Source: a virus. From it: a DNA stretch of 27,132 nt. The notes below the pieces were generated by a model. That model did no database searches, was not told the origin of the DNA, and saw only the letters and a list, made by a program, of their open reading frames with translations. Location of the stretch: the IMG/VR virus record IMGVR_UViG_3300033998_000297, positions 1 through 27,132 of that record, one strand, 5' to 3'. This document shows positions 8,871 to 11,207 of this stretch, one piece after another (the stretch's first letter is position 1; every line of letters starts with the position of its first letter). Position numbers and translations under genes: made by a program.

Positions 8871-9512
8871 TTAGAATTTAAGAACGGTTTGCATTTTGTG
8901 TATATTAAAGCGTTTTTTGCCAGCATCGAAATACTCTTTGTCTATTTCGCAAATGTCAAGGTCAACGCCCATAGTATCACAGGCTATTGCGATACTCATA
9001 CTCCCCCCGTGGGTGTCTAATATTTTATCGCCTATTTTTGCATATCTGTTTAAAACCCATTTATATAAATCAACTGGCTTTTGCGTTGGGTGTATTTTAC
9101 CGTTATCTTTCTTGTTTAGTTCTTGAACTCGCTTTAAGTTAATTATTCTGACATTATCCATATTACTACACCAAGCAAGTTCGGCATCAGCAAAACGCCT
9201 GTCAGGGTTCTTTTTATCCCATATAAGCCAATGTTTTGTATTTTGGTAAGGTAGCATCTCTATAAAATAATTTGCACCCCATATAACTTGATTTTTGCTT
9301 ACTCTAAACAACTCTATAAAATACTCTTTATCTGGTGGGGCGTTATCCCATCCATATTGTTTTTCTGCAAATTGTTTACGACTCGCCCTATTTGTTCCCT
9401 GTTCTGCATTAATCCCATAAGGCGGGTCGACAATTGCAAGGTCATAGTACTTGTCGGGCTTTGACTTCATAAACTCGACACAATCAACATTAAAAAAATT
9501 AATATTTGCCAT
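8871..9512 (-). CDS. DNA adenine-N6 methyltransferase (beta-type motif order)
   Basis: This 213-residue enzyme transfers a methyl group from S-adenosylmethionine to DNA. The catalytic motif DPPY is at residues 29-32, and the AdoMet-binding half comes after it (HPTQKPVDLYKWVL then GDKILDTHGGSMSIAIAC), so the order is that of beta-class enzymes. Motif I reads DTHGGS where most family members have DPFxGSG, a variant I associate with phage methyltransferases of this group. The variable middle section is short. No restriction enzyme gene is next to it, so it is an orphan methyltransferase, most likely protecting phage DNA from host restriction; a role in replication timing is also possible. The two small upstream genes are probably cotranscribed from the promoter at 9986-10017. 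DPPY is used by adenine enzymes but does not rule out N4-cytosine. Confidence 0.9.
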   Translation of the reverse strand: MANINFFNVDCVEFMKSKPDKYYDLAIVDPPYGINAEQGTNRASRKQFAEKQYGWDNAPPDKEYFIELFRVSKNQVIWGANYFIEMLPYQNTKHWLIWDKKNPDRRFADAELAWCSNMDNVRIINLKRVQELNKKDNGKIHPTQKPVDLYKWVLNRYAKIGDKILDTHGGSMSIAIACDTMGVDLDICEIDKEYFDAGKKRFNIHKMQTVLKF

Positions 9513-9534
9513 CGCTTCAAAAAATATTTAATTA

Positions 9535-10017: not shown

Positions 10018-10077
10018 TAAAAAAACAATTATTTTTCATTTAATTGTAAATTTATAATGATTCTAAATAAAAACGGG

Positions 10078-10214
10078 GCATAACATCGGTTTTGCGTAAT
10101 GCCTTCTTTGGTGCTTGTTTTGAACTTTCGTTTTTCATTTAAACTTTATTTTAAATTTTGAGCGTTAGTTTTTCAATAACGGCACTAACGCAAAGCCGCC
10201 CGAACGTTAGCTGC
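10078..10214 (-). mobile_element. Integron attC-like recombination site (about 137 bp)
   Basis: Read on the minus strand, the site opens with an R''-type box GCAGCTAAC (10214-10206), which contains the stop codon of the DUF551 gene, and closes with an R'-type box G-TTATGCC (10084-10077). Between them two arms pair imperfectly: 10181-10205 with 10085-10103, sharing a CGG-pyrimidine-TTTGCGT core and a TGCC end with one- or two-base bulges. This imperfect inverted layout with extrahelical bases is the hallmark of attC sites, which recombine as folded single strands. No integron integrase is encoded here. Confidence 0.6.
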
Positions 10215-10596
10215 AAGCTGGTGGACATGGTATGTCCATCCAATGTGTTGGGTAATAGTTATCATCAAATATACCATCACCGTTTATACCGTCATATACA
10301 TAGCCCCATACCATTTTTACTTCTCCGTTTTCTTGAAATGAAAAGTATCTCATTATACATACTTGTCCATCCAATACAGCCAACACATTGTTTTCGTGTT
10401 CAGGCAATTTTTCGTTTACAGAAATCCAGCCAGCAGCTAACGGCGGTTTTGCCGCAGGCGGGGTGATGTTGGTTAAATTAACTGATTTCATATCCGTATT
10501 TTTATTATTTACTTTTCTTATTGATTTTTCACACGATATTGGCAGTATTAAAAATGTTAAGGCTAAGACTAAGACTGCCAAGCTCTTAGCCCTCAT
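10207..10596 (-). CDS. Lipoprotein (o-spanin-like start) fused to a DUF551 domain
   Basis: This 129-residue protein begins with a lipoprotein signal (basic MRAK, hydrophobic core, LPISC with Cys22). The start at 10596 overlaps the upstream spanin-like gene by 4 bp, so the first 45 residues look like an outer-membrane spanin subunit. From about residue 57 the sequence is DUF551: GWISVNEKLPE at the start and YYPTHWMDIPCPP at the end, with a tryptophan-rich beta core. DUF551 is a small domain frequent in phages and of unknown function. The link between the halves (PPAAKPPL) is encoded by attC-like DNA, and the stop codon lies inside an attC R'' box. I infer that a DUF551 cassette inserted into or next to the lipoprotein gene and fused in frame. 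Whether the product still works in lysis is unknown. Confidence 0.75.
   Translation of the reverse strand: MRAKSLAVLVLALTFLILPISCEKSIRKVNNKNTDMKSVNLTNITPPAAKPPLAAGWISVNEKLPEHENNVLAVLDGQVCIMRYFSFQENGEVKMVWGYVYDGINGDGIFDDNYYPTHWMDIPCPPACS
10433..10460 (-). mobile_element. attC-like right end inside the lipoprotein-DUF551 gene
   Basis: On the minus strand GCAAAACCG, two bases, then GTTAGCTGC (10441-10433) copies the layout of the site at 10084-10095 (GCAAAACCG, two bases, GTTATGCC) with identical spacing. GTTAGCTGC is also the exact 9-base complement of the R'' box at 10206-10214, as expected for the two ends of one integron cassette. A full left arm of this older site is not evident, so it seems truncated. 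Confidence 0.5.
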
Positions 10597-11207
10597 CTGT
10601 TAATTAAAATTGCCGTTGTTATCCCCGCTGCAACGATTGCACAGCCTGCTGTTATTATCTTATTTCGCTTTTTAATCTGGTCCTTGTAGGCCATTTCATT
10701 AATCAACAATTCGTTTTTTTCAGCGTGCAATTTTTCTATTTCATTACTTAATTTTTCGTTAGCAATTACGTATGATTGAATTACTTTTTCCTGCTTTTGA
10801 ATGATGCTATCTTTTTCCTCGAAAATTGTTTCATATGTATTTATAAGGTCATTTTGATTAGCCCTAACTTCATAAATATATAAAATAAGTGTACTATCTT
10901 GAGTTTTTTCAATATTTTCAACAATTTCGCTCTCTAATTTTTGCGTTAGTTTATTTAATTGTTTTTTTTGCTGCTCTTTAGTTTCTGTCAATTTTTCGAT
11001 GTTTTTTTTATGATCACAAATTTCGCTTTGTAGTTTTTGGACTTCGCTTTCTAATTTAGAATTAATCTCAATTAGTTTTGGATTTTCCTTATAAATTATT
11101 TGTACATCATTTTTGTTGCATTTTTGAAAAATAGTAACAAAAAGAATTATTAATGCAATAACTAATGCAATAGTTCCAAATTTATCATCTAAATTAAAAT
11201 TTTTCAT
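10593..11207 (-). CDS. Coiled-coil membrane protein, spanin-like
   Basis: This 204-residue protein has an N-terminal membrane segment (residues about 10-27, around FGTIALVIALIILFVTIF), a long coiled coil of some 140 residues rich in Glu, Lys and Gln, and a second hydrophobic stretch near the C-terminus (IITAGCAIVAAGITTAIL, ending INR). An N-terminal anchor with a periplasmic coiled coil, followed by an overlapping lipoprotein gene, is the arrangement of inner- and outer-membrane spanins that fuse the envelope at lysis. The C-terminal hydrophobic segment is unusual for a classical inner spanin. Amidase and holin lie elsewhere, in the late operon. A structural or membrane-remodelling role is the main alternative. 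Confidence 0.65.
   Translation of the reverse strand: MKNFNLDDKFGTIALVIALIILFVTIFQKCNKNDVQIIYKENPKLIEINSKLESEVQKLQSEICDHKKNIEKLTETKEQQKKQLNKLTQKLESEIVENIEKTQDSTLILYIYEVRANQNDLINTYETIFEEKDSIIQKQEKVIQSYVIANEKLSNEIEKLHAEKNELLINEMAYKDQIKKRNKIITAGCAIVAAGITTAILINR

Follow-up and report, generated by a model that had tools for sequence, protein, structure and literature searches.

Integrons and CALINs have been described in phages, and IntI1 was active on five of the six phage sites tested (Qi et al. 2023, PMC9892861). For the Bacteroidetes, integrons have been reported as near-absent, with In0 elements only from earlier work and one complete integron, in Salinibacter (IntegronFinder 2, PMC9024848). 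The Baltic Sea Flavobacterium phages of Nilsson et al. 2020 (PMC7077304) were described with no mention of integrons or cassettes, and differences in plating among them were tied to methyltransferase genes.

The DNA analysed here, referred to as the window, is a complete IMG/VR virus record of 27132 bases encoding, among other proteins, a terminase and a DnaA-type HTH protein. A segment of the window that encodes DUF551 is likely a degraded piece of a Bacteroidota-phage cassette array, of a kind that a recombinase would mobilize at folded attC-like sites. It belongs, in decayed form, to an integron variant that is non-canonical, partly encoded by phages and reversed in cassette polarity. A search of the open-licence literature, with preprints and most subscription papers outside its range, found no description of a system built on this site family.

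The cassette unit and its flanks in the window

The minus strand carries two ends of the form GCAAAACCG-NN-GTTA, with their G at 10441 and 10084. This pattern has no other occurrence in the window and was seen in 0 of 400 dinucleotide-model simulations of it. The bases GCAGCTAAC at 10214-10206 complement GTTAGCTGC at 10441-10433 at 9/9 bases, and the TAA stop codon of the DUF551 ORF sits within the R'' box. The two ends of the same layout, the 9-base complement and the stop codon in the box had been described in the initial annotation, and all were found where it had placed them. The features of the unit are as follows.

10076..10214 (-): attC_A, a complete attC-like hairpin (covariance model R1, 95.9 bits)
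10214-10206 (-): R'' box of attC_A, GCAGCTAAC, with a 7-nt spacer between R'' and L''
10198-10189 (-): L'' box of attC_A, CGGCTTTGCG, followed by the arms
10096-10087 (-): L' box of attC_A, CGCAAAACCG, 2 nt from R'
10084-10076 (-): R' box of attC_A, GTTATGCCC, from the box coordinates
10207..10441 (-): segment coding for DUF551, representing the gene of the cassette, with no start codon of its own here ahead of the domain
10206..10207 (no strand): predicted cross-over at plus-strand G|TT, by homology to the AACGTTA breakpoints of mumin/snork phages

R1 is a family covariance model made from an alignment of 40 sites with the window left out. Because a model built without the window matches its hairpin (E=1e-23, covariance-model E-values being rough), the hairpin was confirmed. 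The proposal that a phage carries a cassette element of integron-like type was also upheld. Folding energy did not distinguish the window hairpin from shuffled sequences (z -1.3 and -0.8), and no Rfam family matched it. The identification of DUF551 also held, with a PF04448 profile match of 6.8e-11 over ORF residues 56-126 (43.3 bits against a gathering score of 22). As previously annotated, no integrase or other recombinase gene was found in the window.

Scans with single proteins of the window phage (the primase, the 204-aa gene described below and the terminase) returned no close relative. The region had no nucleotide relative among GenBank phages, the exact pattern with GTTAGCTGC matched no viral contig, and DUF551 was absent from the other sampled phage cassettes.

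The flanks of the unit contain four further features.

10433..10500 (-): attC_B remnant, the 3' half of a second attC-like hairpin (5'-truncated R1 match)
10207..10596 (-): 129-aa fusion ORF from the ORF list, comprising a putative lipoprotein-like leader, an attC_B-derived stretch (ITPPAAKPPLAA) and DUF551
10593..11207 (-): 204-aa gene upstream, overlapping the fusion ORF, with an N-terminal hydrophobic stretch and a coiled coil (ORF list)
8871..9512 (-): N6/N4 DNA methyltransferase (PF01555, 1.5e-13)

The R1 match to the attC_B remnant scored 26.3 bits (E=1.3e-7 in a search of 76 bases), and the half expected to hold the cross-over box is missing. Since the upstream flank is an attC remnant, the left border previously assigned to the cassette falls at the edge of that remnant. 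The idea of a single clean cassette at 10084-10440 is therefore not supported, the left flank being a truncated attC and the cross-overs of isolated phages lying at the other R box, which corresponds to 10206/10207 in the window. That 10433-10500 forms half of a second hairpin had been missed in the initial annotation. A chance or ordinary target was also considered for the upstream GCAAAACCG and was ruled out by the truncated R1 match at 10433-10500.

As attC_B is without its cross-over-box half, only one cross-over site is left to the DUF551 unit, which is probably locked in place and can no longer be excised. The leader of the fusion ORF appears lipoprotein-like from its sequence, and through an in-frame fusion the DUF551 cassette would now supply the C-terminal domain of a phage gene of lipoprotein-like type. 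Hairpins of this kind also encode N-terminal extensions, 48 of 114 phage cassette ORFs starting inside the preceding hairpin (for example at 9528 and 13101 of L227), so that site-encoded residues on the N-terminal side, such as ITPPAAKPPLAA, are normal. An array stretch with one and a half sites may have entered the phage or may remain from a former array, and its broken end would then have become joined to a reading frame of lipoprotein-like type. An assembly join near 10500 could also be present in the window.

The 204-aa gene is possibly an i-spanin. Judged by eye, and without a family match, the layout may be that of a spanin pair (Rz/Rz1-like), in which a coiled-coil membrane-type ORF overlaps a small lipoprotein-like ORF; profile searches with the 204-aa gene gave no informative family match. 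The window methyltransferase shares 44% identity with one carried on a cassette in the phage record G043, and no hairpin remains next to the window gene. The window gene may be former cassette cargo, a point that the argument does not need.

Site family, cassette arrays and cassette exchange

A search with GCAAAACCGNNGTTAGCT returned 79 genome contigs, many of them from Bacteroidota, where about 7 were expected by a simple count, and a search with GCAAAACCGNNGTTAG returned 119 viral contigs. Many of the matches had a common architecture, consisting of nnnTAAC, 6 nt, CGGCTTTGCG, variable arms, GCAAAACCG, 2 nt and GTT. Covariation was present in the 40-site alignment, with two-sided changes at 14 of 21 pairs and the observed values reached in 0 of 500 shuffles. 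A C/A mismatch in the L stem was near-constant (39/40 and 40/40 sites), and the site spacers were 6 and 2 nt. The R-box consensus GTTRRRY / RYYYAAC was found at 0/40 boxes on the 2-nt side and 2/40 on the 6-nt side, the conserved part of the R box being GTT plus a purine alone. At E<=1e-6, R1 matched 93 of 198 sampled Bacteroidota genomes. Neither the surroundings of two canonical IntI genes nor Polaribacter phage P12002L, one of the phages of Qi et al. 2023, contained a match, indicating that R1 is specific to its own site family.

The sites were organized in arrays in which the variable bases of successive boxes were complementary unit by unit, in bacteria (Flavobacterium sp. AS60, F. covae and others) as well as in phages. 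Complementarity at 6/6 bases was observed for 25 of 29 adjacent box pairs in bacterial genome arrays and for 85 of 111 in phage arrays, the latter with a mean of 5.3 compared to a shuffled mean of 2.7 (maximum 3.1, 2000 shuffles). The 50-kb viral record G018 contained eight sites at E<=0.001 with small genes between most of them; its array ends in a recombinase gene, and a terminase is encoded elsewhere in the record. The viral record G043 contained 13-14 sites, and isolated Flavobacterium phages contained 10-16 each. Phage cassette cargo was mainly unknown small proteins; DNA methyltransferases were the commonest recognized products, and there was one Mom-like protein. For single contigs, viral status is taken from IMG/VR, a terminase being detected with one profile in 9 of 26 records. 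The arrays of the isolated phages provide independent proof, beyond that status, that such arrays are carried by phages.

Exact gain or loss of cassettes at G|TT was observed in isolated phages. The lytic Flavobacterium phages mumin6-1 and mumin6-3, which are 99.9% identical, differed by exactly one 506-bp cassette with AACGTTA at either breakpoint, and further indels in other isolate pairs involved units bounded at the same AACGTTA point. In gene-sense orientation this cross-over is on the R'' side of the site, and it corresponds to the 10206/10207 junction of the window. Cleavage on the 2-nt side was also considered and was ruled out by the isolate breakpoints. The isolated phages with cassette gain or loss encode no tyrosine recombinase of their own.

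The neighbouring box also differed between the two mumin6 phages, being GCCTATAAC in mumin6-1 (L238 5350-5358) and GCGGTTAAC in mumin6-3 (L239 4844-4852). Of these versions, only the GCGGTTAAC of mumin6-3 complements the other end of its unit. The difference is possibly the product of box correction or of a second exchange.

Linked recombinases and gene polarity

Seven of the bacterial regions that were retrieved have an IntI-like tyrosine recombinase located about 1-2 kb or less from sites. The linked recombinases scored 145-210 bits against TIGR02249, below its cut-off of 265 and compared to 371-467 for canonical IntI controls, and lacked the IntI-specific insertion, with TIGR02249 positions about 178-240 unmatched. 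Bare TIGR02249 matches were dropped as evidence because control genomes match as well, and linkage and a tree were used instead.

The phage recombinases are about 266 aa in length, the first two examples being 54% identical, and 223 stretches of the viral collection encode relatives. Among the kept viral recombinase loci with at least 600 bp upstream, R1 sites were found at 45 of 64. Plus-strand R1 matches were all on the strand of the recombinase gene and nearly all 5' of it, while the few minus-strand matches at these loci were weaker mirror matches to the same sites. A host integron had been named in the initial annotation as the necessary source of the enzyme, a requirement that is removed by the many related phage records encoding a recombinase beside the array. 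The other 19 of the 64 loci with enough flank had no R1 site and may use a divergent attC family outside the reach of R1.

The viral recombinases formed one clade in the tree (support 100/99) and XerC/D another, with canonical IntI outside. The best NCBIfam match was NF040815 at 181-217 bits (cut-off 220), and the best solved structures were XerA (5hxy) and IntI4 (2a3v). The structure model of the phage recombinase was mediocre (pTM 0.60) and supports only the designation of a tyrosine recombinase nearest XerA/IntI4. Bacterial recombinases of the family have N-terminal extensions, giving total lengths of 347 to 580 aa (L208 8744-10486; L212 9373-10416), and these extensions hold repeated W..K.WHLPD-like segments; the 266-aa phage versions are without them.

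Gene polarity was determined using the asymmetry of the site as reference. Upstream genes had one direction in bacteria (40/40) and the opposite direction in viral contigs (36/36). Independent samples in which both flanks were used agreed with these directions at 44/50 for the bacterial CM sample, 62/65 for the recombinase-chosen viral loci and 75/75 for the isolated phages. Bacteria and viruses do not differ in the flank of the sites on which the recombinase lies, so the flip leaves cassette genes directed away from the recombinase in bacteria and toward it in phages. Phage-type polarity was seen at 3 of 26 sites of the bacterial CM sample (L325-L354), which could be prophages.

Proposed mechanism, alternatives and comparison with known systems

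We consider it likely that Bacteroidota phages, ranging from lytic isolates of ~37 kb to contigs of several hundred kb, have an integron class of their own, characterized by a recombinase clade confined to viruses, an attC family in common and a cassette pool in which every gene faces the recombinase, in the direction opposite to bacterial ones, and that this class swaps anti-restriction and other small genes cassette by cassette. The cassette unit consists of a small gene and one asymmetric attC-like hairpin. A recombinase of the IntI/XerA-like family would do the cutting, acting on the site as folded single-stranded DNA at G|TT in the R box of the 6-nt-spacer side, and single cassettes would thereby be inserted or removed. 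The enzyme is encoded at the array end in some phages; in others, including that of the window, it would act in trans, supplied by the host or by a co-infecting phage.

Among the alternatives, exchange that needs no dedicated recombinase and proceeds by homologous or microhomology recombination of one hairpin with a similar one survives best and is nonetheless unlikely. It would be in keeping with the resemblance among hairpins within an array, with the lack of a tyrosine recombinase in the isolated phages and with the truncation of attC_B in the window, which looks illegitimate. However, exchange by homology sits poorly with isolate indels that fall at one 7-bp AACGTTA point, with box complementarity that is specific to the unit and with the genetic linkage of a recombinase to the arrays in both bacteria and viruses.

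Less probable still is one canonical cassette (10084-10440) for which a host IntI carried out a clean insertion at a phage target. The half site forming the left flank and the isolate breakpoints at the other R box both argue against it, even though the complementary 9-base ends, the one hairpin past the gene and the stop codon in the box have the expected form and IntI1 does recombine some phage attC sites (PMC9892861). In addition, a GTTRRRY fit was found in only 0 to 2 of 40 R boxes, and the linked recombinases were under the IntI cut-off and without the IntI-specific insertion. The initial annotation had the unit obeying cassette rules; the R-box consensus, spacer asymmetry and recombinase of this system all depart from canonical integrons.

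It is very improbable that the hairpins are RNA-level elements (terminators or start-codon-supplying 5' leaders) rather than recombination sites, as the 48 of 114 phage cassette ORFs beginning within the preceding hairpin might suggest, given that the strand of the genes with respect to the hairpin is switched between bacteria and phages, which is hardly compatible with an RNA function, that no Rfam family matches, and that the exact cassette indels and unit-specific complementary ends would be left unexplained.

Integrons have been reported as incidental in phages, whereas many of the phage records here combine arrays with a dedicated recombinase. The site family was present in about half of the sampled Bacteroidota genomes, compared to the near-absence of integrons reported (PMC9024848). 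The opposite polarity of bacterial and phage cassettes makes the old question of how a gene joins its attC directly testable. Methyltransferase cassettes vary among near-identical lytic phages of a group in which plating efficiency has been reported to track methyltransferase content (PMC7077304), which suggests a mechanism of rapid restriction escape; cassette differences in Muminvirus and Lillamyvirus, including DNA methyltransferases, may explain the plating differences observed by Nilsson et al. 2020.

The system shares with canonical integrons (class 1 and Vibrio chromosomal) a unit of one gene and one imperfect hairpin, complementary boxes within the unit, cross-over at G|TT, small accessory genes and a tandem arrangement with a tyrosine recombinase on one end of the array. 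It differs from them in a recombinase below the IntI cut-off without the IntI-specific insertion, in R boxes that are seldom GTTRRRY, in spacers of 6 and 2 nt, in sites of ~135 bp with a conserved CGGCTTTGCG/GCAAAACCG core, and in phage genes that point toward the recombinase, with their polarity at the site reversed. Archaeal XerA and IntI-type recombinases are the nearest matches to the enzymes described here, which are linked to attC-like arrays and form viral and Bacteroidota groups of their own.

The phage elements of Qi et al. 2023 (PMC9892861) likewise include integrase-less attC arrays in virulent phages and DNA methyltransferase cargo, but they are from other phages, their sites were found by canonical models, and the R1 family, the virus-specific recombinase clade and the polarity rule do not appear among them. 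Muminvirus and Lillamyvirus (PMC7077304) have 10-16 R1-family sites and the phage polarity; their arrays are entire, in contrast to the one and a half sites left in the window.
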